Source: Liolophura sinensis
Taxonomy: Eukaryota; Mollusca; Polyplacophora; Chitonida; Chitonidae
NCBI RefSeq assembly: GCF_032854445.1
Contig: NC_088307.1
Span: forward strand, 5,208,001 to 5,272,000
DNA length: 64,000 nt
Reading direction: 5' to 3'
The first letter of the stretch is position 1, and every line of letters begins with the position of its first letter. Below, piece by piece: positions 2,167 through 51,700 of this stretch. Under the pieces are notes generated by a model, which worked only from the letters and a program-made list of their open reading frames with translations, did not search any database and was not told the origin of the DNA. The position numbers and the translations under genes were made by a program.

Positions 2167-2943
2167 GTATACTTCAGGTTTTTCTGTCAAGGCTGTCATA
2201 TATCCCCACTGTAACAGAGTCGTTATTAAAAGGAAACAAATTACATAAAATACAAAGTCGGAGATGACTTTGTGAACCCAAGATTTGGACAAATTCCACA
2301 AAGCCAGTTTTCAATTAAGTCAGAATTTGAAATTTGATACACTTAAAGACTTATCGTTTGACCCATATAACTAAGATTAGGACTGAGAAAAAGTGTTATG
2401 TATAGAGCCAATTTCTTCACAACCTAAACTTCTGGAGCTGTAAATTACACAACGTAATGGAGTTAAAATTTTGAATTTAATAAATTGAAGTCAGATATCT
2501 TTCTGCGGAATTGGTTGGAGATTTTGTAATTGATTAACTTTGGTGTGTATGTGAAGTTGAAAGGACCCTTTGTCCTTTGTACACAGTACAGGTATGACAC
2601 GGTCTTACATATACACACATTCCTTAGGAGAGAAGCAAACTGTATGGGTGTATGTTCTTTTGGCAAGGTTTAAATCATAAGCAAACATCATTTTTCAAAG
2701 GAAGTGCCTTTTTAAAGCCTAATTGGTGTTGGTGTGAAGTCAGTGATAATTATATTCTCTGTGTTGTGTGCAGACAGCTCAAGGCCATACCAGGGGCAAG
2801 TGTTATCCAGACTGGGTCTTTTTCCGTTTGCCTATATGCAATACAGACATGCCTGAATCCTGCACTGTTAGACTAGTTTTTGCAAAAGCTTACAACCTGT
2901 ATGTACATTTATATTTGTGTATTATAAAAACTAATATACCCAG

Positions 2944-3165
2944 ATTCTTCTACCTTTTCAACCGCAATTGCAACCAATATTTAATTTTCAAACATTCGGA
3001 GGGAACTGTGGAGTGGAGAGAAATAATTTGCACAGTTTTATGAAGCTTGCATCTTTATTGGCACAAAGAAATCATTTTTAGTGCCATTTTCATAATGAAC
3101 GTATGCATAAATTCCACTGAAATAAGTTCTTTAGTGGTTGAAAAGGTTGAAGATTTACAGTAATA
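2944..3165. mobile_element. MITE-like element, version 1
   Basis: Runs from ttctaccttttcaaccgcaa to gtggttgaaaaggttgaaga followed by tttacag. It contains attcggagggaactgtgga and gcttgcatctttattggcac in inverse order to the copy at 472. Confidence 0.72.
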
Positions 3166-23600: not shown

Positions 23601-26600
23601 GTCTGTAGTGTGGGAATTTGTACATTTAGCCCTGGCAGAGGTTTGTGCTACTGGAGTGCATTTTAGTTTTCTCAAGTTGAGATGGTCTTGTCTATAAAAA
23701 CTCTATAGCCTTACTTTATAGATATGATTTTACCTGTCTTTTCAGTGTGTTTGATACAGATGTCAGCTTGACGCTCACCCAGACCTCAACCCCAGACCAT
23801 CCTGACCATGCCACTCCCAAGGACAACCAACAGGGGAAGGCTGGTGCTCAAGAGGAGGTAACCCTGAATGCTGTACCTGACACAGTGGAGAAGGGAGACA
23901 ACTCTGTTCAAACACTGCGGGCAGATGACACACTTGAGGATGTAAAGGAGTTCATCAAAGAGGCTGCCGATGCCAAAGCTGAGGAAAAAAACAATGATGA
24001 CGTAGTTGCGTACTCTACAACAAAGTAAGTGGATTCAGTTAATATATTTCTGTTACTTACAATATTAATTGACGACTAGTGGTTTTATCTGATAAAAATG
24101 TTAGCCTTGCGATGTAAGACAAAAATGTTCTAAACATGACATAAATTTGCATAAGATTTTCGGTAATTGTTTGAAATGGATATTTCCCCATATAGAAGTG
24201 ACACATTTTTTCAAACCGTCAGAACAGGGTATCTAAATTTTCAGTCCATCACTGTTGTCATATAGTGTCCAAACCATGGGTGGCCTGACACTGGTGAAGA
24301 GTTGCCCTTCCTTCAGCACTTCTTCCCACTGACCATTGACCTCTCAGACTTGAATCCAGCTCTCGCTGCTTTGGTGATGATTTAAGGTGAAGCGGTTTGC
24401 ACCTTACATCTACCTGATGAATTGCAGGGATTTGCCATGTAGTCATCCAGAAACATTGTTGTCAGATATTAGTGAAGAATTCTTGAGTATGGCTTGAAAC
24501 ACCAAATTATTGATTAAATTAAATACACAGGGGACGACTACCATTAGCAAAATACATGAGAAATAATATTCCCCCTTTTATTTCCAGTGAGAAAGAAAGT
24601 ACAGCAACGAATATCGTTCCCGATGTGGAGATAGCTCCCCACGATGTAGAACTCCCCTCAGTAAATATAAGAGAGACCTCAACAATACCACCCCAGAAAG
24701 ATGCCATTGAACTTCAGTTTCCATTAGATGGAGGGGTAGTACAAGAGGTCATCAAGGATGGAGGCGATTCAGGGGAGACAACTGAGGGAGGGCAGGAAGA
24801 GTTTCCCAGCTTTGGAGAATGGACGGCGAAGGTTCTGGCAGAAGAGGAGAAAACCAAACTGGAGCAAGAGAGTAAGTGAGAATTTGCCAAGCTATACTTT
24901 AAATGACACTCCTGGAGGTATAAAATGACACTCCTGGAGGTATAAAATGACACTCCTGGAGGTATAAAATGACATTCCTGGAGGTGTAACATGACACTCC
25001 TGGAGGTATAAAAATGACACTCCTGGAGGTATAAAATGACACTCCTGGAGGTGTAAAATGACACTCCTGGAGGTATAAAATGACACTCCCGGAGGTATAA
25101 AGTGTTTGTAATAACTAGCCAAGCTATCCAGTTTCAAATAGTGCTGAAATTTATTATCAATATCATCGTTTGTTGTACCATCATCAGTGGAAACGTCTGT
25201 CGTAGAATCCCCATGTGATGCATTTTGATAATTTTTTTTTTTTTTTTTTTGCAATTTAACAATATTAGGTATAATTTTGAAATTTGCCGAAGGTAATAAA
25301 GACTTGTTTGGTCAGATTGTTCTTCAAGTGAAATGTTTTCTAGATGTACTTTTTATTTATGAATGAATGCTAAAATGAATGAATGATTATGGCTTAACGC
25401 CACTTCGGCAGTATTTTAGCACTATCGTGGCGATGAATGTCAAATTGTACAGCCTGTCAATAAGCTGACTGAATAGTTTGAAAACTTCTCATCACAATTG
25501 TTTAATGCTACAGCTCCAAATTTGTCCGAACAGAAACTGAATTTTGTCCAGTATTTGACATTTACAAGTTCTTAAGGTGTGAAGATAACTGACACTACAT
25601 CTATATTTTAGGTTTGGGTAACATGCCAGGGGGAGCTGTTCAGCCAAAAACCGTGAAGCAGAGCCGTAACAATTACGCCTTGCGTGATTGCGGTGCTAAG
25701 GTTCTGGCGGCAAATCGAGAGGCTCAGAACACCAATGGTATCCTGAACGGGAACAAGGATGACTATATGACCAATCCCTGTACTGCCAAGAAATGGTGAG
25801 AATCAGAGCTCATTGTCGTGAGTCCTGGACAGTGGGTGGGGAAATAACTGTAATTTATATGTTGATCGCATGTTTGCAAGGGGTTCATTCGGGCATATTC
25901 TGAAGGCACTATAGTGTGTTTGACTGATAAAATTAGACTTTTTGTGAAGCTCTGAAACTGGCCAATTCAGCCAATGTAGTTTGGTCTCCAAAATTAAATT
26001 AAAAATGTGCATAAATTGCACTGTAAGTTGATCTTTCGTATGCGAAAAGATTGAGGTATGTACATTGGTCTGTGTGGTAAATAATAAGTCATTATTGATT
26101 GCTCAGTCTTTGAGACTGCTTTGTTATTTTCAGAAACATCCATCAAGTCTTTCCCTTATGAATACTTTACCCTTACATTCAAGAACTTCTACATTTTGCT
26201 TTCAAGAAATAATCGTGTTCAATATTCTCATTATTTTCATAGACTGTCACATCTGTACCTGTCCCACCTTCACACAAGCGATACTGATTTACTATATTTA
26301 CCTTAAAATTTCTTCCATGTCATTTTTGCCTTTTCCCCTGGGTTCTGTTTTAGACCTATGTCTTAACGTTTGGTTGGAAGGTCTTAGGATAGTCTAGTAA
26401 ACCAAAAGTAATGCCTCTAAAATGTACTTTTTTTCTGGAAATGTTTAGAACCTATACAGGTCCCTGAACAGGATAAGTAACCACCTGCACAAAAAAACTC
26501 CCTTTGTTTCTTTCAGGTTCATCGTTGAACTTTGTGAGCCAATCCAGGTGAGAACAATCGAGCTGGCCAGTTTTGAGCTCTTCTCATCTCAGCCAAAGAC

Positions 26601-29600: not shown

Positions 29601-32600
29601 CCAGATTACTTTCAAGTAACACCAGTCAATCTGATATGAATAAGAGATTATCCATAAGTTTTTGTCACAATATTAAAGAGTTTTTCTTTGAAGGAGTTAC
29701 TTTCTTACTGGCCAAATGAAGACCCTATTTTCAGCAAGCAGCAAACAATATGGTATATTTGAAACTTATGATGGAGAAACCCTTATTTTGTCTTTTGCAT
29801 TGTAAAGCTGTTGATGACTTTTGCATATGACAAAGATTCTACCATTACCATGTTTCTCTTTGATGGAAAGAATCCTGCAAAGAAAATATTATGGCAGTCA
29901 TTGTTAGATATTCTGATCATTTGATTTTAATTGTTGTTTCACAACAGAATAAATCTTTTGTCCAATGTCGGAAGATGGTACTGTGTAACAAAAAAACCCC
30001 TAAAAAATGTCTAATTTGTGGGAAATGTGGACTATCCCTGTAATTTTTTGCTGGTGAAGACATATTTACATAATCAGAAATTTACATGATCTGTCCCCTC
30101 TGACACTGTGATTTGTGGTAGTGTTGTTAACAAGCCTTTAGGTGGAAATGGATTGATTGGTCTACAAGGTAAATAAATGGTATGATCTGTCCCCTCAGAC
30201 ACCATGATTTGTGGTAGTGTTGTTAACAGGCCTTTGGGTGGAAATGGATTGATTGGTCTACAAGGTAAATAAATGGTATGATTTGTCCCCTCAGACACCG
30301 TGATTTGTGGTGGTCTACATAGTAAATAAATGGTATGATCTGTCCCCTCAGACACCGTGATTTGTGGTAGTGTTGTTAACAAACCTTTAGGTGGAAATGG
30401 ATTGATTGGTCTACAAGGTAAATAAATGGTATGATCTGTCCCCTCAGACACCGTGATTTGTGGTAGTGTTGTTAACAGGCCTTTAGGTGGAAATGGATTG
30501 ATTGGTCTACAAGGTAAATAAATGGTATGATCTGTCCCCTCAGACACCGTGATTTGTGGTAGTGTTGTTAACAGGCCTTTAGGTGGAAATGGATTGATTG
30601 GTCTACAAGGTAAATAAATGGTATCATTTGTCCCCTCAGACACCATGATTTGTGGTAGTGTTGTTAACAAGCCTTTAGGTGGAAATGGATTGATTGGTCT
30701 ACAAGGTAAATAAATGGTATGATCTGTCCCCTCAGACACCGTGATTTGTGGTAGTGTTGTTAACAAGCCTTTAGGTGGAAATGGATTGATTGGTCTACAA
30801 GGTAAATAAATGGTATGATCTGTCCCCTCAGACACCGTGATTTGTGGTAGTGTTGTTAACAAGCCTTTAGGTGGAAATGGATTGATTGGTCTACAAGGTA
30901 AATAAATGGTATGATCTGTCCCCTCAGACACCATGATTTGTGGTAGTGTTGTTAACAAACCTTTAGGTGGAAATGGATTGATTGGTCTACAAGGTAAATA
31001 AATGGTATGATCTGTCCCCTCAGACACCGTGATAAGCCTGGTGAAGAAGGTGTTGAAAGTGGAGGATAACGAGCAGGCTCCACAGGTGGAGGAGGTGCAT
31101 TCTGGCAACACAGGTGAGTTGTGTCTCTTGTGTTTTTCAGAAGTTCACCCTGTATGACATACAGCATTATTTTCATGTGTTGTAGCATCTTCATTAAGGT
31201 AACATGGCTAAGGGCAAATGTTGTTGTGGTAGTTACCTGTACAAACTGCATAGTCTACAATCATTTTGTGGTATTTCCATGTTTTTATTTATTCTGTTTC
31301 TGTTTCTGTTTCATTTTTATACATCATGTAGTTTGATAAAATTGTTATACGGCAAAAACGTGTTTTTTTCAGGGAACAGCACAGAGTTGGAGTCATTAGA
31401 GAGTAACCTGACAGAGGACGGTTATCCTCTACCCTGTGTTCCTGATGCAAGGTAATGCAGACTCAACCCAATCTTAAACCTGCAGAATTTCTTGTATTTA
31501 ACGTATTAAAATTCAGTAAAAACATGGTTGACTAGCTTGCAGGGCCTGTTTCCCCTGGCTCACACAAGGTTATTTCTGACCTTCACTCACATCATTTTTT
31601 GTTACCTTTGCAGCATACCTGTTTCCCCTGGCTCAGACACAGACAACAGCACTGTTACCAATTCCACGGACATCCAACCCCAGGAGCCTTACCCACACAC
31701 TGTCAAAAGTAAGTCCTCTGTCAGTCCCTAGGCCCCAGGTACCATATTTATCAAACATCTGGATTTAATTCAAAAATTCAAATACAGGTACAACCAAATG
31801 GTTTGCTGTAGGAAGTTTAAAATTTGTACACCGATTCTTTACTGCAGAACAATGTGCCAATTAAAATTTCTTTCCTTTTCTGAGTTTAGTTCTTTAAGTG
31901 CTTGCTTTTTATGACTGAAGCATAAATGACTTTGCTGCTGAGCACAAGGTTACTTGTTGCTCAGCAGTTGTGCCTTGTGTGCGCACAACTTTGGCTGTGA
32001 TTTTAGGCACGAGAGGAAGTGAGGATTGAATCTCTTGTGATATCCAGTATGCCTTGAAATTCGTACCTAAATCCCAGCGTGTGTCGTTGGCGCTTTGAAA
32101 AGTGCACAGCACAAAGAAGTTGCTGTCCTGGGCTGACGTAACTGGGAATAAATCTATTGAAAGATTAGAGGGATAATTTTTCTGTTCTGTCTTTCTGTTA
32201 CTCTCAAGTGTCTGTGCAGTAGCTGTTCCGAATGTTGTTAAATATTTTGTTACATTTATTTGTGGGATACTAATTGTCTTGTTGGGTTTGTTGCCTTTTT
32301 TTTTTATCCAGATGACAATTTTGTGATAAAACTAGAGGACCATGAACAGCCACCATCGCCGGATCGTCTGACCGAACCTCTCGTCACTCTTATTGACTGG
32401 AACTTCTTCTCCTCCATCGGGAATAAGGAGCTGGCACAGAGCTGCTCCTCATGTCATGGCAACATCTCCGCCTTAAAACAGAGGTCTGAGGGACGTAAGA
32501 ACTGTATCTACATCAACCTGCTGTTAGGGAGTCTCCAGCATCGGCAGTCTTGTCCTGCAAAGCGCAGAAAGTGGACCAAGAAAGTGAAAGTGAAAGACAT

Positions 32601-35600
32601 GGTTGAAGAAACCTCTAGCAATATTTTGTCATCAGAATCAGTCTCTGTGAATGTCCAAGAGACTACCGTGGAAGGTGAAAAGTCAGAAGAAACGAAAGCT
32701 GAGGTATCGGAGGAGAGTGTCACATCAAGCTCTGCAAATGATCCAAATTTTGTGATGATCACCACGGCCACTCCCAGACCGAGAACCACAAAGAGTGTTG
32801 TAGAACATTTACAGAGCTCAGTTACAGAGGTGACGAAGAGTGAGAGTGAAAGTGAAAGCGAGAGCATTGTATCACCAGAGTCAAAGATAGATGTAAGTAT
32901 TGTTGAAGAAACCCTGGTGTCATTCTCATCGACAGTGAGTATCGTAGATCCCAGCAAGGTGGCGACCGACAGCAATGATGTAACGATGCATCCACAGCCA
33001 GGTCATGTGCTGATCCCAACAGCAGTGGCGCCCTCTAGGACAGAGGAATTGTCTCAGGATACAGCAGGCGGTTCATCAGAACTGACACACGAGACCGGTG
33101 AAGATAAGGCTCAGCAGCTACCACCCGTTGAGCTGGAACCATCGTACAACAATCCCTCTGTCACCAAGAAGACTGCCGAGAGCGATGACGCATCCGTGAG
33201 CTCAACACCTGCACTACCTCCCGTTAACGAGGACACTACTGTGTCTCTGAGTCCCCCTGGGCAAAGTGTTACTAATGAAGGGGAAGGAACTACTGAGAAT
33301 GGCCAACAAGCCGAGAAAGCTGATCCCATAAAGGAAGAAGTGACAGATCCACCTGCAGAAGTCACGAGGGACACGACTCTTGTTCAGCCGACACCTGTGG
33401 AAGATGCAGGTGCGTCATTGCAAGACAGCAACAAGGTTATAAAAGCCATTAACCAATCAGATTCATTGGCAGGAGAGGAGGGCAAGAGAGACCTTAACCT
33501 TGTGCGTGTGCCAATCTCGCCTCATATGAAGCGGGAAACGGCGATAATGAGGCTGAATAATCGACTAAAGGCATTGGAGCTAAACGTGTCACTGAGCAGC
33601 CGCTTCTTGGAAGAGCTCAGCAAACGCTACCGCAAGCAGTCGGACGAGGTGATGAAACTGCTTAACAAGACCATGTCCAGGCTCAGCAACACCACCAAAC
33701 TGGTGGAGGAAAAGGTCAGGCCCAAATTTGTTCTCTTTCAGCTGATTGAGAATTCGTAGATTCCCTCGCTCTCACTGTCTGTGCAGTCGAACACGTTCGG
33801 CTCATTGTGGCTGTGTGGCAGTACAGTCCAAGGTTTTGTGGAAGGGAATGTTTGTAACTTCACCCCTTGCACACTGGTCTCCTCCACTCATTAAATTCTT
33901 TTTAAAGTCTTTTAGAGTCTGGGTGTAAAGTAGAGCAAAACATTAAAATGACAAATTCCTGTTCTTTTGTATGAAGAAGAGCGTATTTCGTTGATTTGAC
34001 TACCGTTTCATTCTCACACTCATTATTACAGTGTAGTGATTTCTCTCCATGTTTGTCCATATAGGATCAGCACAATCGTGAACTGATTGGCATCTTGGAG
34101 GCCCGCATAGACAACCTGACTTCCCTCGTGAGCAAGCTGGCAGACAATGTGGGTCACTTGGACCAAAAGGTGAGGAATGCAAAATTACTGGGCTCAAGCG
34201 TTTTCCCAAAATCGAGTACCAGGTCTAAGAGAAAACTGATCTCACTTGACACTTTAAGCAAAACTTTGTAAAACCAATTTTCTTGTAAATTTTTTGTAAA
34301 TGATGTTTGTGTATTTATGCTGTAAAGTTACAAAAGACTGTTTAGTCAATTTCCTGAAGGGTGCCCTGCTGTGATAGGCTAGAACAATTGCTTAAATGGA
34401 CTAAGCAAGTGAAGGGCATCACTGTTGATTATGTATGATTCAAATCTTGAGATTCCTTCCAGCATTTCCTGGCGACCTGCTCATATGTTATTGTTCATTT
34501 CGTTACAGTTAACAGAGCGTAACTTCACGTGGGCCACCATGGAAGTCGTTGTCGTCTTTGTGTTGTTATTGATGAGCTGGCGTCGCACCCAGAGTCCTTA
34601 CATCACCCCAGAGATACAGAAGCTGTTAGAAAACATGCCCTCGGGGCCGGGCCCGCCCAAACGACGACGTAGACGAAACTCCTCCACGGGCACCATAGGT
34701 TACTCCTCTCCTCACCCCCCCCTGGTGAAACACTCCAGCGAAAGTGCTCTAGGTAACGTCCTGTGTAACTTGTGTTGACAGAGGGACCCTAATTCTGCAA
34801 CATTGTTGCAAGCAAAAGAGCAACTTTCAGTGTAGTTTTAGTACCTTTTTGATTGATTTTCTAGACAAAACTGCATTGGTTGGGTTGGCCAATTTTAGGG
34901 CTTCAAAATGTGTCACCAGCCTAAACGGAATAATGCCCTCAGCATATGCTTGAATGAACATCTTGCAAACATGCAAGAATGTTGAAGAATTGTCATCCAC
35001 TCTGGTGAGACACTACAGCGAAAGAGCTCTAGGTATGCCCCCCTTTGTAGTCAGTGCTGATAGAGCCTCTTTCTGTACTTAAAGGCATGTTTAGTATGTG
35101 TAAATATTTCCTTTTATTCTGTGTCATAATGGAAAATCAAAACCCTTAATGAAGTGATAACCGTTCATTGTATGAGAGATTGCACTCTATGGAATAACCC
35201 TCACAGTTGGTGTCTGTGATATAAATTCTTGACGAAGAACTGATGGAATATGTGAAGTTGAAAATTTAGCTCAATTTGTCTCGTGATCTATGACACAATT
35301 TAGCTCAATTTGTCTCATGATCTGTGACGCAATTTAGCTCAATTTGTCTCATGATCTGTGATGCAATTTAGCTCAATTTGTCTCATGATCTGTGACACAA
35401 TTTAGCTCAATTTATCTCATGATCTATGACACAATTTATCTCAATTTGCCTCATGATCTGTGACGCAATTTAGCTCAATTTGTCTCATGATCTGTGGCAC
35501 AATTTAGCTCAATTTATCTCATGATCTATGACACAATTTAGCTCAATTTGCCTCATGATCTGTGACACAATTTAGCTCAATTTGCCTCATGATCTGTGAC

Positions 35601-37410
35601 ACAATTTGGCTCAATTTGTCTCATGATCTGTGACACAATTTAGCTCAATTTGTCTCATGATCTGTGACACAATTTAGCTCAATTTGTCTCATGATCTGTG
35701 ACACAATTTAGCTCAATTTATCTCATGATCTATGACACAATTTATCTCAATTTGCCTCATGATCTGTGACACAATTTAGCTCAATTTGTCTCATGATCTG
35801 TGACACAATTTATCTCAATTTGTCTCATGATCTGTGACACAATTTAGCTCAATTTGCCTCATGATCTGTGACACAATTTATCTCAATTTGCCTCATGATC
35901 TGTGACACAATTTAGCTCAATTTGTCTCGTGATCTATGACACATTTCTCTATTTCTTACAGATACTCAACTTGAATTTAGTATAGTTGAACCGTTGGTTG
36001 CTGCGGTCTCCTCAGATACAAAGGTACATTCTGAATTTCTTGCCTCTCTCAAACTGTTTATTATAATGAGGTTACCAGCTACCTGCAGCCTGCTACTTGA
36101 GTAAAATTTTGGGCAGGTAAATGACCAGATCTCCTATTGTTCTTCATTTAATTAGTGGCTACTTTTCCAGGGTAGCCTTCTACTCACAAGGATAGCAAAA
36201 TCCCTGCTCTTCTTATACAGGCTATGGCGGGAGATTGACCAATGTGGTCAAGGTGTCAAATCCAGATCTTGCTAGGTCACCTGCAGTTTGATAAGGTTTC
36301 TGAGGTACCTTCATGTGTAGCAAATGGCGAGGCTTACTTTTGGCAGCTCTGGTTCCTTCCACCCATGCACCTAACCACCTTGGTATTGCTTACATGCTCG
36401 GAATGTCTAACAGAAACTTGCAACATGATCCGGCTTTTCCCCCCGATCTCTGCCCAGTTTCCTCCCACCATATGGCTGGCCACTGTCGTGTAAGTGAAAT
36501 ATTCTTGAGTACGATGTAAAACTCCAATCAAATAAATAAATAGTATGGCGTAAACACCTGTAAATTAGCAAATACTATTTCTGTATTCTGTTTTCAGCTG
36601 ACAGAGGGGAACAAAAAGAAGAAGAAAAAGAAGCACAAAAATCTTGAGTCAAAGTCCACTATCTATAACAGAATGAGAGAGGTGACACCCTCCAGTAGTT
36701 CCTCATCCAATCAGAGCAGTGCTTCCACAGCTGGAGCTTTTAATGGCCCAGGAATGGCGTGGTTTGATGGGAGTGACAGGTGTCCGTCAGAGAAGCCCCT
36801 GTCAGATTCTCAGCCAGGAATCATGTCGGGTCAGCCGAGTAGTGTATCGGTGAATGGTGTGAAATGCCGACCAGGGTACCAGCCAAGTGACAGCAGTGGT
36901 GGCAGTAGTACCAGTATAGCCAGCACGGTGTGCTCTGAGAGAGACACTGCCGGCTTTTACTCTAAATTCCCCGTGAAGGCATCAACAAGTGCTAGCTTTG
37001 GCGGTTCCCGTCCCATGTCAACCCAGACTGCAGCGGTCAGGATCTCAAAGTCAGCCAGTAATAAGGGACTCTCAAACGCCAATGTGAACAGAAACGCCAC
37101 GTCCAAGAAATCCAAAGAGGTGTGGCACTGCCGCGCGCAATCTGACGGCAATGTCACCATTGACGAGAAGCTGGAGTATTGGAGTGACACATGCAAGAGG
37201 CCTCCAGAAAGCTCTGCAAGCCGGCGTCTAAGCGAAAATAAAGGTGGGGGAGGGGCCAATCGTCAGCAACGCCGTGTCTCTCACCCGACAGAAACTCTAA
37301 GTGCTCTGAATGGGGCGGTTGCGATGACAGACACGCCGAAGTCAGCTAACCAGTCCGACAAAAGTCACAGGTGGCCCGGTAGTTGGAAAAACATCATCAG
37401 CATCAAGTGA
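5472..37410 (+). CDS. SUCO: SUCO: SUN domain-containing ossification factor, 3' part of gene (17 exons)
   Basis: Exons: 5472-5657, 9568-9713, 23746-24024, 24588-24871, 25612-25795, 26517-26624, 27388-27549, 28405-28469, 28881-28943, 31024-31113, 31373-31451, 31614-31708, 32312-33714, 34065-34169, 34509-34752, 35962-36023, 36598-37410. All junctions are AG/GT, the phases match throughout, and the total is 4368 nt with a terminal TGA. In order, numbering from the first in-window residue: acidic Ser/Thr-rich region (1-275), FPSFGEW motif (276-282), SUN domain (about 305-455), low-complexity region with a Cys cluster, coiled coil (about 985-1083), transmembrane segment (about 1091-1107) and a basic, Ser-rich tail. 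The SUN domain carries family features such as [16 protein letters not shown] and HFCP. SUCO/Slp1-family proteins are ER membrane glycoproteins; yeast Slp1 acts with Emp65 to protect folding of soluble ER proteins, and mouse Suco is needed for bone formation. The signal peptide and start lie upstream of the window. Confidence 0.93.
5958..6034. repeat. Tandem repeat, 25 bp, three copies
   Basis: Unit aaccatattgcatgtaggtg + tgtcg; occurrences of ccatat at 5960, 5985 and 6010. Confidence 0.85.
6098..6168 (+). mobile_element. SINE family A, 3' end
   Basis: gaccgccgtcgtatgagtga, attcttgagtacagcgtaaa, caccaatcaaataaataaat: the conserved 3' part and (AAAT)n tail. Confidence 0.8.
6169..7361. other. 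Intronic, no feature recognised apart from a G run
   Basis: Contains an uninterrupted G run at about 6784-6800. No coding signal. Confidence 0.5.
7362..7523 (+). mobile_element. MITE-like element, version 2, right end lost
   Basis: Starts actgtgattcttcaaccttt and follows version 2 to aaatgtgcatatt, where a SINE tail (7524) begins. The SINE seems to have inserted into it. Confidence 0.72.
7524..7566 (-). mobile_element. SINE family A, tail fragment
   Basis: tatttatttatttgattggtg followed by ttttacgccgtactcaagaa; only the 3' end, in minus orientation. Confidence 0.75.
7767..8135. repeat. Minisatellite, 21 bp, about 17 copies
   Basis: Unit taggcaataaggcacacatgg with variants. Because 21 is a multiple of three and the unit lacks stops in several frames, it yields long spurious open frames on both strands (heptapeptide repeats). 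Confidence 0.9.
8522..8762 (-). mobile_element. MITE-like element, version 2, reverse orientation
   Basis: Starts taattcttcaacctttttcc, contains attttggagacaaaactata and ggattggccaatttcagagc, ends ggaaagttgaagaattacat. These are complements of the version 2 interior. Confidence 0.75.
9568..9713 (+). CDS. SUCO: SUCO exon (acidic region)
   Basis: 146 nt between tttttcag and AAG|gtatgt. It reads [15 protein letters not shown] and onward, again acidic. Phase 0 in, phase 2 out (AG left over), which joins T from the next exon to give Ser. The 14-kb intron that follows contains only repeats as far as I can see. Confidence 0.78.
10002..10160 (+). mobile_element. SINE family A, 5'-truncated
   Basis: From ggcgtaggtgggaaggtctt through cagcaacctgcggatggtcg and gtgaaatattcttgagtacg to accaatcaaatgaataaa. 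It lacks the tRNA head. Confidence 0.82.
10209..10302 (-). mobile_element. SINE family A, 3' half
   Basis: tatttatttatttcattggtt, ttttacgctgtactcaatat, gcccagcattatggtgggat. About 50 bp from an opposite-facing copy. Confidence 0.78.
13470..13803. mobile_element. MITE-like element, version 1, interrupted by a SINE
   Basis: Left part (aaacattctgagagaactat, ataatttgcacaggtttttt, cttgcatctttag) and right part (tccatctttagggacac, tttgaggatgaaaaggttga, agatttagagta) flank the SINE at 13556-13690. The repeated catctttag on each side looks like the SINE's target-site duplication. Confidence 0.7.
13556..13690 (-). mobile_element. SINE family A inserted in a MITE-like element
   Basis: ggtgttttacgccatactca, gatggcggccagcattatga, acccacaaccatccgcaggt. 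5' head missing. Confidence 0.8.
14210..15297. repeat. Minisatellite, 35 bp, about 31 copies
   Basis: Unit gcatggataaatcagtcaaa + atcaagcgaaatata with point changes and a few shortened units; AT-rich. Short open frames in it are repeat artefacts. Confidence 0.92.
15411..15510. repeat. 50-bp tandem duplication
   Basis: aactttcaacagtccagtga ... aacacagtgagcat occurs at 15411-15460 and 15461-15510 with one mismatch. Confidence 0.93.
16037..16242 (+). mobile_element. SINE family A
   Basis: Partial head (ttgttagcacatcagcatag, cgcaatgac), then gtacgtgggaaggtctgcct, cctcccaccataatgctggg, and an AAAT tail. The B-box region is partly deleted. Confidence 0.85.
16972..17194. mobile_element. MITE-like element, version 1, complete
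   Basis: Best copy of version 1: begins ctgaaaatcttcaacctttt, ends ggttgaaaaggttgaagaat + tagag. Terminal inverted repeats of about 20 bp; interior acaaaagcacttttttcagt ... actaaagatgcaagcttcat. Confidence 0.8.
17435..17600 (-). mobile_element. SINE family A, 3' two-thirds
   Basis: atttatttatttatttgatt, cagcggccagcattatggtg, agaagccagcatgagctgga; the head is missing. Confidence 0.82.
22008..22244 (+). mobile_element. SINE family A, full length
   Basis: Head cagttggtcagcgtgttagc with A-box, B-box-like gctgtgagctcaagtccagc, body gatggtcatggctctgcccg, 3' gtgaaatattcttgagtacg and (AAAT)n tail. Confidence 0.87.
22251..23204. other. Intronic, no feature recognised
   Basis: Mixed-composition intronic sequence with acatacaatgtacacac-type motifs; nothing coding. 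Confidence 0.5.
23205..23376 (+). mobile_element. MITE-like element, version 2, ends eroded
   Basis: ttgcaaggtgtttattcaag, tttttgtgaatccttgaaac, ccaatgtagttttgtctcca, ataaattgcactgaaagttc. It lies 370 bp before the exon at 23746. Confidence 0.72.
23746..24024 (+). CDS. SUCO: SUCO exon (acidic region)
   Basis: 279 nt, acceptor cttttcag, donor AAA|gtaagt. It encodes a Thr/Pro/Asp-rich stretch ([17 protein letters not shown]) followed by an acidic helix-like part ([20 protein letters not shown]). Phase 2 in and phase 2 out. The open frame is continuous with its neighbours. Confidence 0.85.
24470..24527 (+). mobile_element. SINE family A, decayed 3' end
   Basis: gtgaagaattcttgagtatg, gcttgaaacaccaaattatt, ttaaattaaata. 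The upstream 200 bp may be the decayed body. It sits 60 bp before an exon. Confidence 0.5.
24588..24871 (+). CDS. SUCO: SUCO exon with the FPSFGEW motif preceding the SUN domain
   Basis: 284 nt. Near the 3' end (24802-24822) it encodes FPSFGEW followed by [23 protein letters not shown]-like motif followed by a basic/acidic helix immediately before the SUN domain is characteristic of the Slp1/SUCO family, so this is a strong anchor. The donor A|gtaagt is followed about 30 bp later by a 22-bp tandem array. Confidence 0.9.
24899..25103. repeat. SUCO: Minisatellite, 22 bp, about 9 copies, close to a SUCO donor
   Basis: Unit aaatgacactcctggaggta + ta. It starts about 28 bases after the donor at 24872. 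One unit has an extra A. Confidence 0.92.
25355..25445. mobile_element. Fragment of another dispersed repeat
   Basis: aatgaatgattatggcttaa + cgccacttcggcagtatttt + agcactatcgtggcgatgaa. It resembles in design, but not in sequence, the 3' half of SINE A (target for an end of the type taacgcc). Family assignment uncertain. Confidence 0.4.
25612..25795 (+). CDS. SUCO: SUCO exon, start of SUN domain
   Basis: Encodes [20 protein letters not shown] and onward to [13 protein letters not shown]. The NYA..DCGAK..LAAN..A opening and the YM.NPC..K.W block match the SUCO-type SUN domain, which lacks the KASH-binding features of nuclear SUN proteins. The exon ends inside the Trp codon (TG|gtgaga), completed by the next exon. 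Confidence 0.95.
25865..26056 (+). mobile_element. MITE-like element, version 2
   Basis: tgtttgcaaggggttcattc, tttttgtgaagctctgaaac, tagtttggtctccaaaatta, ctttcgtatgcgaaaagatt + gaggta. Left end eroded. Confidence 0.72.
26517..26624 (+). CDS. SUCO: SUCO exon, central SUN domain
   Basis: 108 nt encoding [20 protein letters not shown] and [17 protein letters not shown]. The [11 protein letters not shown] core is the most conserved part of the family. Acceptor ctttcag, donor AG|gtaaat. Confidence 0.96.
27388..27549 (+). CDS. SUCO: SUCO exon, central/late SUN domain
   Basis: 162 nt encoding [19 protein letters not shown], then [20 protein letters not shown]. The GTFHA.EER block and the HF..EHFCP.TLFR ending are SUN-domain features of SUCO. 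Acceptor cccacag, donor AG|gtgagg. The following intron starts with a truncated SINE and a 22-bp minisatellite. Confidence 0.96.
27558..27632 (-). mobile_element. SINE family A, truncated by a minisatellite
   Basis: atttatttgattgattgagt, ggctgtactcaagaatattt, cacttatacgatggccgcca, then directly the 22-bp array. Confidence 0.78.
27633..28000. repeat. Minisatellite, 22 bp, about 16 copies
   Basis: Unit gtggaatcctgaatagacaa + ca, with a few units extended by ctgttat or tgctgtt. It gives long overlapping open frames on the minus strand that are artefacts. Confidence 0.92.
28029..28211 (-). mobile_element. MITE-like element, version 2, reverse orientation
   Basis: agtaattcttcaacctttta, gaaagagcaactttcattgc, gattttggagacaaaactgt, gaaacggttgaagaattacc. 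Well-kept inverted ends. Confidence 0.77.
28405..28469 (+). CDS. SUCO: SUCO exon, end of SUN domain
   Basis: 65 nt encoding [24 protein letters not shown] is the last conserved block of the domain; an acidic linker follows, as in family members. The acceptor could slip by one G (ccag|ggtg), but the frame fixes the start at 28405. Confidence 0.92.
28881..28943 (+). CDS. SUCO: SUCO small exon after the SUN domain
   Basis: 63 nt, acceptor ttttctag, donor AAAG|gtaaga, phase 1 at both ends. It encodes [20 protein letters not shown], an acidic linker. As a symmetric exon its skipping would keep the frame. Confidence 0.85.
29249..29516 (-). mobile_element. SINE family A, full length
   Basis: Poly-T, gattggtgttttacgccgtg, cagcattatggtgggtggaa, catccgcaggtagctgacag, agccagcatgagctggactt, gaactcacagcgaccgcatt, and the tRNA-like head ctaaccaactgagccacgga + ggcccc. 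Read on minus the head has an A-box (tggctcagttggttagcgcg) and B-box (gtgagttcaagtcc), so it is pol III type. Best reference copy in the window. Confidence 0.92.
30087..31023 (+). repeat. SUCO: 96-bp minisatellite carrying acceptor, pseudo-exon and donor in each unit
   Basis: Ten units (one shortened by 39 bp) precede the exon at 31024. Each has atgatctgtcccctcag, then a 66-nt segment starting ACACC(G/A)TGATTTGTGGTAG and ending GGTCTACAAG, then gtaaataaatgg. Exon-like segments start at 30103 (acceptor mutated to CTCTG), 30199, 30295 (27 nt), 30352, 30448, 30544, 30640, 30736, 30832 and 30928. In the SUCO frame each reads [20 protein letters not shown] + LQ with phase 1 at both ends; the short one also keeps phase. 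Confidence 0.95.
31024..31113 (+). CDS. SUCO: SUCO small exon whose acceptor is the seed of a 96-bp array
   Basis: 90 nt, phase 1 at both ends, encoding [20 protein letters not shown] and onward, a basic amphipathic stretch. The acceptor gtcccctcag and the first ten exon bases (ACACCGTGAT) are identical to the corresponding part of the tandem units just upstream, so the true 3' splice site is the last of a run of near-identical sites. The donor is ACAG|gtgagt. Confidence 0.88.
31373..31451 (+). CDS. SUCO: SUCO small exon
   Basis: 79 nt, acceptor ttttttcag, donor CAAG|gtaatg. It encodes [20 protein letters not shown]. Phase 1 in, phase 2 out. Possible N-glycosylation sequons (NST, NLT) fit a lumenal location. 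No recognised domain. Confidence 0.83.
31614..31708 (+). CDS. SUCO: SUCO small exon
   Basis: 95 nt, acceptor ctttgcag, donor AAAA|gtaagt, encoding [20 protein letters not shown]. It is rich in Ser/Thr/Asp with two NST sequons. Phase 2 in, phase 1 out. The assignment rests on frame continuity and splice sites. Confidence 0.82.
32312..33714 (+). CDS. SUCO: SUCO large exon: Cys cluster, low-complexity region, start of coiled coil
   Basis: 1403 nt (467 codons), acceptor tttatccag, donor AAG|gtcagg. It opens [19 protein letters not shown] segment with five Cys follows (SCSSC, one C in the middle, SCPAKRRK), then about 330 residues rich in Ser, Thr, Val and Glu with many direct repeats of (SE)n. 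It ends with [20 protein letters not shown] and [16 protein letters not shown], the membrane-proximal coiled coil that is highly conserved in SUCO. The low-complexity middle is not alignable by eye to vertebrate SUCO. Confidence 0.93.
34065..34169 (+). CDS. SUCO: SUCO exon, second half of coiled coil
   Basis: 105 nt, phase 0 at both ends, encoding [20 protein letters not shown] and [15 protein letters not shown]. The heptad-like leucine spacing continues the previous exon. Acceptor ccatatag, donor AAG|gtgagg. Confidence 0.92.
34509..34752 (+). CDS. SUCO: SUCO exon with the transmembrane segment
   Basis: 244 nt. It encodes [20 protein letters not shown], then LMSWRRTQ, a short hydrophobic stretch with flanking Arg that matches the C-terminal membrane anchor of the family, followed by a basic KRRRRRN run and a Ser-rich part. 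Donor CTAG|gtaacg. A degraded copy of the last 31 nt and donor lies at 35002-35038. Confidence 0.92.
34722..35080 (+). repeat. SUCO: Duplicated exon end and donor flanking a MITE-like element
   Basis: The last 31 nt of the transmembrane exon (ctggtgaaacactccagcga + aagtgctctag, 34722-34752) recur with three changes at 35002-35032, again followed by a donor (gtatgc). The sequence after both donors is also similar for some 40 bases. A MITE-like element occupies the space between. Confidence 0.8.
34789..34997 (-). mobile_element. MITE-like element, version 2, between exon-end copies
   Basis: ccctaattctgcaacattgt, aagagcaactttcagtgtag, tggttgggttggccaatttt, tgcaagaatgttgaagaatt. Ends diverged. 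Confidence 0.75.
35262..35945. repeat. SUCO: Minisatellite, 34 bp, about 20 copies, next to a SUCO acceptor
   Basis: Unit gacacaatttagctcaattt + gtctcatgatctgt. It ends about 16 bases before the acceptor at 35961, within the region where branch points lie. Confidence 0.93.
35962..36023 (+). CDS. SUCO: SUCO small exon in the cytosolic tail
   Basis: 62 nt, acceptor ttcttacag, donor AAG|gtacat, encoding [25 protein letters not shown]-like sequence occurs at the equivalent place in vertebrate SUCO tails. It follows directly after a 34-bp tandem array. Confidence 0.82.
36430..36542 (+). mobile_element. SINE family A, 3' half
   Basis: gatctctgcccagtttcctc, ccaccatatggctggccact, gtgaaatattcttgagtacg, (AAAT)n. 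A decayed body may start near 36230. It ends 55 bp before the terminal SUCO exon. Confidence 0.8.
36598..37410 (+). CDS. SUCO: SUCO terminal exon
   Basis: 813 nt, acceptor gttttcag, TGA at 37408-37410. It begins LTEGN followed by seven Lys and HKN, comparable to the Lys run in vertebrate SUCO tails, then about 240 residues rich in Ser, Gly and Asn, ending [12 protein letters not shown]. The polar composition suits a cytosolic disordered tail. Confidence 0.92.
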   Translation: MTEGNKKKKKKKHKNLESKSTIYNRMREVTPSSSSSSNQSSASTAGAFNGPGMAWFDGSDRCPSEKPLSDSQPGIMSGQPSSVSVNGVKCRPGYQPSDSSGGSSTSIASTVCSERDTAGFYSKFPVKASTSASFGGSRPMSTQTAAVRISKSASNKGLSNANVNRNATSKKSKEVWHCRAQSDGNVTIDEKLEYWSDTCKRPPESSASRRLSENKGGGGANRQQRRVSHPTETLSALNGAVAMTDTPKSANQSDKSHRWPGSWKNIISIK

Positions 37411-45700: not shown

Positions 45701-48700
45701 CTAATATGTTCATTAATGACATCATTTCCGAAAATTTCCGATGATTGACGGAAAATATGCATAAAAAATGGAGGGGTTATTAAGAGATACCCAATACGCC
45801 TTGTTTTTTTTTTTTTTTTTTTTTTTTGAGGGGGCTGTCTCACCATATTTTTGCAACTTCATTTCCCTTAAATCCATAATCTGTGTTTCAGAGTTTCTTT
45901 CATGTACCTCTTAAGTCAAGTCTTCTTTGCGACTGTCCCCTTCTGTTATACAGGGTCTCACGGTGAGATGGTGGCGGCCATGTCTAACGTCTCCCACGTC
46001 AACGCCACGTTACTGGATCGCGTCAGCAGCGCTGAGGAGAAGGCACGGGAACTGGAGAATAAGTTTGCTCACATGGAGATGGAAGTGGCTAGGAAAGAAG
46101 GTCAGGTAACATTTTGTGTAAAATGTTATGTAAATATCCTCACCGATCAAATAAATAAATAAATAAATAAATACCGGTAGTAATTCCACTGCATAAACTG
46201 TGTGAAAGGGACCACCGGAATTTAGCGCATTTAATTTGTATCCTTTTCTAAAACAACCCAAATGTTACGGGTAAACTTTGGTTAGGCAACAAAATATTCA
46301 GTATTTAATTAAATATATAAATGACAGGTTTGTGTCGATCCACGGAAGCCACTGTTGAAAGTTGCCGGAAGGAAAACGCTAAATTGCGTGAGGAGCTCTA
46401 CATGTTACGTCAGCAGAAGGATGACGTCACGGAGGAGAACAATCGAATGAAGCATTCCATTCAGGAACTGAAAGAGTTGTCCTTCAACGCCCAGGCTGAG
46501 CTCAGCAATGTCAGGGGTACGTGCACGAAAATGTGGACCGGGGTCCAATTCAAGCCTTGTCATTTGTTTGTTCTATTTGTTTGCTTATTTCAGTACATTG
46601 GAAATGCATGCTTGCACGGACACGATTCAACAACTTTACATAGTTAATAGGATATATCGGCGAGTTTTCCTCTCACAACGGGTGGTGCAAGTGTGAATTA
46701 AGACTTGCACGTCATAAGTCTTTTGTTTGGCGACGTGAAACATGTGACGTGTTGCGTTTTCATCTATGACGTATATGATCACTGTGACGTCACGCTGTTG
46801 AAGCTGCAGTGGAGCTTGTTTGGTTCCCTGACTATGCCGTGTACCTTGTTGTCTGGTTCCCTGTCCATGACGTCAGAATCCGCTAATCGTTTCACATTCA
46901 TGGTACGCCGAATACGTCAGGGAACCAGAATAACTATGTACATTAGCGCCATTGGCGCCACTTGACGTCAGCGGGAAGGAAGCGGCCAGCAGTGGAACGC
47001 TCAACGTCTGCGAAATTACGTGATACGATCCACTTCTGACTTCTGTCGGTATCCCGTTTTAAGAAATCATAAATCATGTGTTTTTTTCTTTTTTTATATG
47101 TTTAAGTGCCCCTAAAATTTATTTAAAGACATCTGAGAGTACAGATCCCAAACGATGTAATGAATAGTTTTATGACCCGAATGGAATCATTGTTTTTGCG
47201 CGCAATGCTTTCTGGTGTCATTATGAGATATTACAAAGCTGAAAAAGTTAATTTGACGTTATATTTACAGCCGCTTTGGGGAAGACAAGCAATTGCTTGG
47301 AAACGACAAGTAGGAACAGAGATGTTCTGTCGTCAGAGAAACAAAGTCTAGTGTCCCAAATCAGCCGAATCCAACACGAGCTGGAGGTGGCGCTGAAGAA
47401 AAAACACGAATTGTCAGGTACACACCCGGAGAGAAACCACGTGACTTGATAAAACACGGCTTGCTCAGACGTTGATCCGTTTATCGAAAAGCATCAATTG
47501 TTTAAAATAGCAATTTAATTCTTTGGCTTCCATAGCTTATATATAGAGCTCATGAACGTCCACTACCTCGTCATCATCGTTAAGTAAGCTATACATAGGC
47601 CCCCATAGCCTGTAAAATATCAACACATTTAAAGGTGTCAGGTCTTCCTTTTATGCAGATTAGCGGCTTTCAACCCCATATATTTGACTATGTTGTTTTT
47701 TATTTGTTGTTTGTACAATTTGTTGTGTAAGGCATTTCATCTATTTAGCCTGATTTATTTTCTCTCGTTTCTTTCTGAGTATAGCTGTTTTCACTGGACA
47801 TTTTAGTCTGACAGATTTAACTTTGATGTTTTGTACAATATTATTTCTTGTTTTAATAACGCATTTCATCTATTAAGACATTGTTGATAATCACGCGGAT
47901 GAACGTGAGAAGTTGGAGGCGGAGCTGAAAAAGCTGCGAACAAGCTTGGCGGAAGTGATCGATGAGAAGGACAGGAACGAAAAAGAGGCTCGATGTAACA
48001 CTAACTTCCTTCAGCGAGAACTCTGCAAACTGGCCGGTAAGTGATGGGGAAATTATCCCTTCAGCGGGAACAGTGCAAACTGGCCGGTAAGTGATGGGGA
48101 AACTATTTCTTCAGCGAGAACTCTGCAAACTGGCCGGTAAGTGATGGGGAAATTATTCCTTCAGCGAGAACTTTGCAAACTGGCCGGTAAGTGGTGGGGA
48201 AACTATTCCTTCAGCGAGAACTTTGCAAACTGGCCGGTAAGTGATGGGGAAATTATTCCTTCAGCGAGAACTCTGCAAACTGGCCGGTAAGTGATCGGGA
48301 AATTATTCCTTCAGCGAGAACTCTGCAAACTGGCCGGTAAATGATGGGGAAACTATTCCTTCAGCGAGAACTCAGCAAACTGGCCGGTAAGTAATGGGGA
48401 AATTATTCCTTCAGCGAGAACTTTGCAAACTGGACGGTAAGTGATGGGGAAACTATTCCTTCAGCGAGAACTCTGCAAACTGGCCGGTAAGTGATGGGGA
48501 AACTATTCCTTCAGCGAGAACTTTGCAAACTGGCCGGTAAGTGATGGGGAAATTATTCCTTCAGCGAGAACTTTGCAAACTGGCCGGTAAGTGATGGGGA
48601 AACTATTCCTTCAGCGAGAACTTTGCAAACTGGCCGGTAAGTGATGGGGAAACTATTCCTTCAGCGAGAACTTTGCAAACTGGCCGGTAAGTGATGGGGA

Positions 48701-51700
48701 AACTATTCCTTCAGCGAGAACTTTGCAAACTGACCGGTAAGTGGTGGGGAAATTATTCCTTCAGCGCGAACTCTGCAAGCTTGCAGGTAAATGATGGGGA
48801 AACTATTCCTTCAGCGAGAACTCTGCAAGCTTGCAGGTAAGTGATGGGGAAACTATTCCTTCAGCGAGAACTCTGCAAACTGGCCGGTAAATGATGGGGA
48901 AATTATTCCTTCAGCGAGAACTTTGCAAACTGGACGGTAAGTGATGGGGAAACTATTCCTTCAGCGAGAACTCTGCAAACTGGCTGGTAAATGATGGGGA
49001 AACTATTCCTTCAGCGAGAACTTTGCAAACTGGCCGGTAAGTGATGGGGAAATTATTCCTTCAGCGAGAACTTTGCAAACTGGCCGGTAAGTGATGGGGA
49101 AATTATTCCTTCAGCGAGAACTCTGCAAACTGGCCGGTAAATGATGGGGAAACTATTCCTTCAGCGAGAACTCTGCAAACTGGCCGGTAAATGATGGGGA
49201 AACTATTCCTTCAGCGAGAACTCTGCAAACTGGCCGGTAAATGATGGGGAAACTATTCCTTCAGCGAGAACTTTGCAAACTGGCCGGTAAGTGATGGGGA
49301 AACTATTCCTTCAGCGAGAACTCTGCAAGCTTGCAGGTAAATGATGGGGAAACTATTCCTTCAGCGAGAACTTTGCAAACTGGCCGGTAAATGATGGGGA
49401 AACTATTCCTTCAGCGAGAACTCTGCAAACTGGCCGGTAAATGATGGGGAAACTATTCCTTCAGCGAGAACTTTGCAAACTGGCCGGTAAGTGATGGGGA
49501 AACTATTCCTTCAGCGAGAACTCTGCAAGCTTGCAGGTAAATGATGGGGAAACTATTCCTTCAGCGAGAACTCTGCAAACTGGCCGGTAAGTGATGGGGA
49601 AACTATTCCTTCAGCGAGAACTTTGCAAACTGGCTGGTAAGTGATGGGGAAATTATTCCTTCAGCGAGAACTTTGCAAACTGGCCGGTAAGTGATGGGGA
49701 AACTATTCCTTCAGCGAGAACTCTGCAAACTGGCTGGTAAGTGATGGGGAAACTATTCCTTCAGCGAGAACTTTGCAAACTGGCCGGTAAATGATGGGGA
49801 AATTATTCCTTCAGCGAGAACTTTGCAAACTGGCCGGTAAGTGATGGGGAAACTATTCCTTCAGCGAGAACTTTGCAAACTGACCGGTAAATGATGGGGA
49901 AATTATTCCTTCAGCGAGAACTTTGCAAGCTTGCAGGTAAGTGATGGGGAAACTATTCCTTCAGCGAGAACTTTGCAAACCGGCCGGTAAATGATGGGGA
50001 AACTATTCCTTCAGCGAGAACTTTGCAAACTGGCCGGTAAATGATGGGGAAACTATTCCTTCAGCGAGAACTCTGCAAGCTTTCAGGAAAGTGATGAGGA
50101 AATTAGGAGGTAGTAGCCATTGACGTGTAGTTCCATTAGCCACTGACCAAAGCCGCCACTGCGCCACCGAGCCTGACATCTGTGGAGCCACGGTGACGTG
50201 TATTGGGACGTCAATCTGTGTCCACTGGCGGTCAGATCGACGAATGGAACGTACCTCTATCGTCCGTTCTCTAGAGTGTCTTGTACCTTTGACATCTGTT
50301 CCACACAATGGTCGGTTATTTTGGAATCTGTTCCACGATATGACAAGCTATGAATGCAATTTGCACAATAGTTGGTTAGTATGACACCCATTCCACAAAA
50401 CAGCTGCAAGTTTAGTTTGGAATTCATTCTGCAAATGGAACGTGGAAAGGTAAATACTGAATACAAACAGTTTTTTTGGACAGCATAATAAAAAAGAAAT
50501 TTATTGTAAAATCCACTCAAAAATAAATAAATAAATAAAAATAAAAAAAAAACATAAAAACACTATTCAGTTAGGCTTGGTGTTATATGTTTTAAATTGA
50601 TTATAAACTGGGAATCCGTTCTCAAAAATGCTTAAATCCATTCTACATGATAAGGTGTACATTTGGCGTCCATTCTGGAAAATTGCTAGCGGAAATCATG
50701 TACTAAATGGATGACTATCTCTAACAACACTTTTAGGTGCTGATTACTAACACGCATTGCGGCCAATAACTGAGCGATTTGTAACAAGAAAATCGCAGTT
50801 TGGTGATTGGTTGATTTTATCCAATGAATGCCTGCTTCACAATCGAATTTAAAAGGTTTTGATTCAACGTGCATGAATGACAAAAATATAGATTTTCAAA
50901 AATGGCATCATTTTTATCGGATTTCAGAAAGGTTCAAGAGACGTCAAAGGTTGATTGAGAGGCTTACAGCGGACAAGGAAAACCTGATGGTATGTTGAGT
51001 AGTCATAGTCAAAAAGCGCATGCGTCAGCGGACGTTTCCGAACACCGAATACACCAGTCATAAAACGTTGCTGTAGCGAACGGGTTAACAGAATATCCCA
51101 CGCATACCCTGTGCATTCCTAATGATTGTCTTTTCAGTGACATTAATAAATTATTTGTTATTAAACTGACTGTCTTTTAGAATCAACGCAAAGTGAAAAT
51201 GGATTGCAATATCAAAAGAATGGTGAGATTGTGGGACAGGTTCTGTGTGAGGCATTCGCGTTCATGATAAGCCCCTTAAACTCCCGGCCATCGACATGCT
51301 CATCGACGGTTCTTGGCATTTATTTCATGAAATATCAGTTAAAGTTTGAATCACTATAAGCTATTTATTGCGGTAGTCTTTTATCAAAGAGAAATTCCGT
51401 GGCGACTTTTCCCTTTGAGGAAAATGGCGATTGATTTTCATGTTGGTTACGTCTCCATGTACAGAGGTCCACGTGATCAGATTCCTGCGTTCTGAATGGG
51501 CTATTGGGAAAAAATTCAAACCAGAATGAAAATTACTTTGATTGGTGGATAGAGGTGTGGGTCAGTCAACAATATATAAATGGGGATCTCCGTGGCCTAG
51601 CGGTTAGCGTGCTAGCATAGCGCAATGACCCAAGAGCCCCCAAGAGTTCTGCCGGATTTCCTCTCACCATAATGATGGTAGACGTCGTATACGTGAATTA

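Follow-up and report, generated by a model that had tools for sequence, protein, structure and literature searches.

A 64,000-bp stretch of the genome of the chiton Liolophura sinensis (RefSeq assembly GCF_032854445.1, contig NC_088307.1, positions 5,208,001 to 5,272,000 of the forward strand; called the window below, its first base being position 1) contains, in intron 6 of a coiled-coil gene, a tandem array of 42 units of 50 bp which span the end of exon 6 and its 5' splice site (donor). With good confidence, the array can be read as a neutral, homogenising minisatellite of the mirage kind, which would be ignored by splicing and be the product of a high birth rate of minisatellites in this genome. 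The name mirage was given to exon-intron boundaries copied in tandem in the Adh3 and globin genes of amphioxus, and troponin C and PGBD5 were added later, as described in PMC3087553 and PMC3902484. What is new here is evidence that the same kind of repeat occurs in another phylum, in a mollusc, and that it is common in the genes sampled. The genome was first published as that of Liolophura japonica, which was later corrected to L. sinensis.

Anatomy of the array and reading frame of the host gene

47271-47417, + strand: exon 5 of the coiled-coil gene, 147 nt, acceptor ATTTACAG, donor GTACAC; its frame joins exon 6
47878-48036, + strand: exon 6, 159 nt, the last 30 nt being the exonic part of unit 1; open frame ...NFLQRELCKLA, which joins exon 7
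48037-48042, + strand: genuine donor GTAAGT of intron 6 (48037-50927), with the frame kept to exon 7
48007-50106, + strand: 5' mirage minisatellite, 42 x 50 bp, GT in 41 units (from repeat finding and unit cutting)
50057-50106, + strand: terminal unit 42, the most divergent, with 9 differences from the consensus and the donor GT changed to GA (from unit comparison)
50928-50989, + strand: exon 7, 62 nt, acceptor ATCGGATTTCAG; the frame runs on as ERFKRRQRLIERLTADKENLM

Tandem Repeats Finder (TRF) reported a single array at 48006-50102 with a period of 50, 41.9 copies, 93% matches, 0% indels and a score of 3585. Cutting from position 48007 gave 42 in-phase units, each exactly 50 bp long, among which 25 distinct sequences were found. 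Unit 1 holds the genuine junction of exon 6 with intron 6 (30 exonic and 20 intronic nt) and is continuous with exon 6, which bears out the original prediction that a real exon end had been amplified together with its donor. The same prediction had described 41 donor copies at 50 bp, every one keeping its donor; the spacing and the absence of indels stood, but the units number 42 and GT is present in 41, unit 42 reading CAGGAAAG (GGAAAG). Among the 41 GT units the donor letters are GTAAG in 26 and GTAAA in 15, with unit 8 reading GTAAGTAA and units 4 and 15 GTAAGTGG. The division of the unit into a 22-nt pseudo-exon and a 28-nt spacer, the acceptor-like string TTCCTTCAG and the TGA met in frame immediately behind the first donor had all been described correctly.

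When the genome was searched with a two-unit query, all of the matches (19/19) fell inside the array (C13:5256006-5258105). Since they did so, the array is not a chance occurrence, and an origin of the 50-bp unit from a dispersed element was set aside, although a search of this type skips very common words and scores the best candidates only, and is therefore no proof of absence elsewhere. The array was confirmed to be real. Its exact spacing is nothing special, since 0% indels were usual: they were found also in 17 of 24 sampled arrays of at least six copies elsewhere in the genome and in 4 of 8 in the window.

Exons 5, 6 and 7 have GT-AG splice sites and form one open coiled-coil frame via the first donor. 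In the frame check a stop was encountered behind all of the later donors (40/40), as had been predicted. The inclusion of a single 22-nt pseudo-exon would shift the frame, and if all the 28-nt mini-introns were spliced, so that the 22-nt pieces of units 2-41 were joined, two stops and a frame shift would result. The array thus does not fit the Rogers model of intron gain by tandem duplication, in which the copied segment brings both the donor and the acceptor of a new, spliceable intron and the frame is preserved.

The similarity of neighbouring units was 0.9405, compared with 0.9404 in shuffled order (P 0.47), and only lags 4 and 15 were slightly high (P 0.033 each, with 15 lags tried). A block of three changes, at positions 23, 26 and 29, is shared by units 16, 17, 27, 31, 39 and 42, only the first two of these being neighbours. 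These scattered variants would fit repeated exchange or conversion rather than a simple recent stepwise expansion. Of the earlier proposal of recent expansion or homogenisation, homogenisation was upheld. The homogenisation appears to leave out the ends, clearly so at unit 42 and with a weak signal at the 5' end, where unit 2 differs from the consensus at 4 positions and unit 1 at 2.

The array would have started as a short duplication which by chance took in the 3' end of exon 6 together with its donor. This would have grown to 42 copies, among which unequal exchange or gene conversion would have maintained uniformity, as the pattern of variants suggests. The extra copies are all situated within intron 6. 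The spliceosome is predicted to take the outermost, exon-contiguous donor, as the frame requires; since that donor would be used, the array would be removed as an ordinary intron and so tolerated, its copies being functionless. The high birth rate of minisatellites in the genome would only occasionally trap a splice site in this manner.

Comparison with known repeats at splice sites

The chiton array shares with the amphioxus mirages (Adh3, BflGb6, BflGb9, troponin C and PGBD5), as these are presented in the two reports, a unit which spans the boundary, and many copies with the AG or GT retained; both 5' and 3' types are on record there. Many, though not all, of the chiton units (41/42) have kept GT, and the unit length of 50 bp lies within the range given for amphioxus (10-72 bp in Adh3, 150-160 bp in the globins). 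The copy number differs, the BflGb6 haplotypes being listed with 6 and 3 units and PGBD5 with 3 units of 108 bp, in contrast to 42 in the chiton. Length instability and undisturbed splicing are reported for amphioxus, whereas the chiton array is known from the sequence of one assembly.

In human IFI6 (6-16), as far as its description goes, copies of a donor are likewise arrayed at the end of an exon, but the downstream units serve as alternative donors, while in the chiton their use would give a stop; in the 1995 study of IFI6 the unit is said to be about 12 bp. A near precedent is provided by the variable internal tandem repeats of human segmental-duplication genes, which according to the account in PMC2812944 are also minisatellites at exon-intron boundaries and are linked to novel introns, but unlike the chiton array they average 4 x 30 bp, belong to recent paralogues and are coding in half of the cases. 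The TSSK1-like gene of abalone contains a polymorphic intronic minisatellite, again in a mollusc, for which the account in PMC6905558 does not state whether a splice site is spanned. In a literature search that was thin on subscription journals, nothing called a mirage in the splice-site sense was found outside amphioxus. The word "minisatellite" was absent from the chiton comparative-genome paper and "tandem repeat" from the genome paper.

A second mirage in the window

30086-31033, + strand: second mirage, a 96-bp array copying the acceptor tgtcccctcag, followed by ACACCGTGAT, of a SUN-domain gene; 11 sites, 10 with AG
31024-31113, + strand: exon of the SUN-domain gene behind the acceptor mirage; its frame joins the preceding exon

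The window thus holds one donor and one acceptor mirage. The original prediction had overlooked this second array, as it had overlooked that the 50-bp repeat belongs to a described kind. The genuine acceptor is the last of the 11 sites (31024); between 30295 and 30352 a shortened unit reduces the spacing to 57 bp, and AG has been lost in the 5'-most copy (30103). The upstream part of the joined exons gave a match to Pfam Sad1_UNC (E 9.6e-25), and we take the gene to be SUCO-like. Two further arrays of the window, 35263-35943 and 24901-25101, lie about 30 bp or less from apparent exon ends, and the splice site is not copied in them.

Arrays at exon ends in motor-protein genes and the question of hot spots

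In order to estimate how often arrays reach splice sites, three families of multi-exon genes, dynein, myosin and kinesin, were chosen without prior sight of any repeat in them. Stretches around the best 25 of 90 dynein AAA_6 matches, the best 25 of 81 myosin matches and the best 22 of 132 kinesin matches were taken, which after merging comprised 202,560 bp with 143 exon matches and 49 arrays (TRF score at least 90, period at least 10; one dubious array dropped). Eight arrays overlapped an exon end. Donors are copied in dynein genes on contigs C6 (31-bp unit) and C9 (44 bp), twice in myosin on C12 (66 and 31 bp) and in kinesin on C11 (73 bp); acceptors are copied in myosin on C2 (32 bp) and in kinesin on C8 (64 bp) and C9 (27 bp). 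In acceptor arrays the last copy is the one that enters the exon. The proportion of 8/143 is rough, since a match may in some cases end with the domain rather than with the exon, and the best-scoring matches favour long exons. Summed array lengths amount to 26,030 of the 202,560 sampled bases and to 8,592 of the 64,000 bases of the window, where 2 of the 16 arrays overlap.

Several candidates were not counted. The array at C2:23758804 (positions 1-1235 of stretch L017, 75-bp unit) starts at most 10 nt into a dynein intron, by the donor GTGAGT, with no clear copying. Six arrays come to within 60 nt of where a match ends but do not overlap it (one on C10, two on C4, three on C1). The dropped myosin array (2339-3021 of a C8 stretch) covers 113 nt of an exon match in a frame that contains a stop.

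The 49 arrays were then placed at random, with the overlap into an exon limited to 30, 60 or 150 nt and never exceeding one unit. Mean boundary hits were 3.2, 4.7 and 7.1, respectively, as against the 8 observed (P 0.010, 0.078 and 0.405). Trapping by abundant ordinary minisatellites accounts for most or all of the boundary hits. It has to be weighed against the proposal that splice junctions are duplication hot spots, for example through exchange at AG/GT-like microhomology, so that mirages would exceed chance and feed intron gain or sliding. The strictest null speaks for such hot spots, and a model of intron gain from mirages has been put forward for the amphioxus globins; the looser nulls do not separate the hits from chance, and no gained intron was seen, though none was searched for. 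We consider the hot-spot explanation unlikely, though it is the best placed of the rivals.

Use of the later donors

Could the later donors or the 22-nt pseudo-exons be used in alternative transcripts, as in human IFI6, so that poison exons tune the output of the gene? Besides that precedent, which is cited as it stands in its published description, there are units 17 and 39 (GCAG followed by GTAAGTGA), whose computed U1 pairing of -13.1 kcal/mol is stronger than the -10.1 of the genuine donor. The stops behind the later donors and the break of frame by 22 nt, however, would leave no full-length coding isoform. Introns separating adjacent units would be 28 nt long, less than is usual in animals, which also counts against this explanation. 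Since, in addition, the amphioxus mirages are reported in PMC3087553 and PMC3902484 to leave splicing undisturbed, regulated use of the copies appears rather improbable.

U1 binding and the variability of the donor copies

In the original prediction the run of donors was thought possibly to pin the U1 small nuclear ribonucleoprotein (snRNP) or to shield the transcript from premature polyadenylation. A functional array of this type, in which dozens of sites hold U1 snRNP and aid the definition of exon 6 or block premature polyadenylation, would be consistent with the U1 pairing computed for the 26 GT copies (the genuine one included) that read GTAAG, which ranges between -9.9 and -13.1 kcal/mol, and with the six AATAAA motifs of intron 6, all of which follow shortly behind the array (50487-50540); their placement is compatible with shielding and with its absence alike.

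Were the copies to act as U1 sites, the donor would be expected to be conserved above every other part of the unit, but it was found to be more variable. Heterozygosity in units 2-41 was 0.100 in the 9-nt donor window and 0.049 in the rest of the unit, and only 4 of the 50 circular windows of the unit were more variable than that of the donor. The +5 position matters for U1 pairing, and the duplexes computed here agree: with +5 A, found in 15 of the 41 GT copies, pairing weakens from roughly -10 kcal/mol, reaching either -5.3 or -5.5 in 12 copies and still being -8.5 in the three that carry GCAG. GT is present in 41 of the 42 units, yet numerous other positions are kept as well, and its retention in the array ranks 16th of 30 dinucleotides. 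The variation of the 50-bp array gives no support for selection for U1 binding, and the earlier suggestion of pinning or shielding was not upheld.

In order to follow the loss of the splice dinucleotides, six donor mirages (110 copies) and four acceptor mirages (87 copies) were pooled. In the former GT was lost in 7/110 copies, compared with 15.1 expected from the other dinucleotides, whereas in the latter AG was lost in 18/87 copies, compared with 11.9 expected. The GT result favours a U1 role. Such a role leaves the acceptor mirages unexplained, and altogether we hold it to be very unlikely. Inflation of one or a few copies by the assembler is hardly credible despite the coverage of just 14X given in the genome paper, because the high-fidelity (HiFi) reads, stated there to have a mean length of 8,347 bp, outspan the 2.1-kb array and the units are of 25 types, similar arrays being present at other loci, although the exact copy number could be off. 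According to the same source, the data come from a single assembly from which haplotypic duplications were purged.

Weighing of the neutral reading

Several observations weigh against a strictly neutral array produced by chance trapping. Strict neutrality would not predict the asymmetry between GT and AG loss; the copies are not independent, and because they share ancestry no P value can be attached to it. The asymmetry is a possible sign of selection against upstream AGs and is a lead for the AG-scanning idea, not a result. Under the strictest null (overlap of at most 30 nt) the hits are about 2.5 times the expectation (P 0.010), and with the dubious myosin array kept there are 9 hits against 4.8 expected (P 0.032), so a modest preference of arrays for boundaries may exist. 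The use of the first donor is deduced from the reading frame. The coiled-coil gene has no family assignment: Pfam and NCBIfam matches were all under the curated cut-offs, and the one PDB match had an E value of 0.19.

A wider reading is tentative, and we would give it a real but minor chance: mirages would be pervasive in the chiton, the spliceosome would routinely pick the exon-contiguous site among about 6-42 copies, and selection would be asymmetric, the extra donors behind the real one being harmless and retaining GT, whereas acceptors upstream of the real one would compete under AG scanning and be purged of AG. By extrapolation, if 8/143 sampled exons are typical, thousands of splice sites would carry mirages.

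Other genome observations

A contig of 108,685 bp (C99) contains seven COX1 copies about 15.5 kb apart and is apparently a mitochondrial concatemer, COX1 being read with TGA as Trp; a long TA-rich tract adjoins cox3. With gene names that are presumed here, the order is cox3-nad3-nad2-cox1-cox2-atp6 on one strand, with nad5, nad4, nad4L, cob, nad6 and nad1 on the other, which corresponds to the order that is ancestral in molluscs and chitons. According to the published account, chitons mostly retain the ancestral mitochondrial order. On C8 there are eight matches in a row to the haemocyanin beta-sandwich (PF14830), a family which we take to be molluscan. The mitochondrial order and the haemocyanin thus point to a mollusc and not to amphioxus; a search for the GFP family found no match, a weak negative as no control gave a signal. 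Myosin-head matches at C3:10779719 and C8:10565775 are contained in open frames of great length (1339 and 1870 aa), in which introns are few or absent, and might be processed copies or unusual genes.

Significance

Ten mirages were found in the genome of one chiton, including two within the 64-kb window; in the papers found, arrays under that name are described from a handful of amphioxus genes only. This suggests that genomes rich in minisatellites generally give rise to arrays which copy splice sites, even in animals that are distantly related. Such arrays may mislead gene predictors. With about 6-42 copies of a donor or an acceptor, they are natural competition experiments for the choice of splice site, in which the copy adjoining the exon should be chosen under exon definition, and a different copy under simple proximity or AG scanning.

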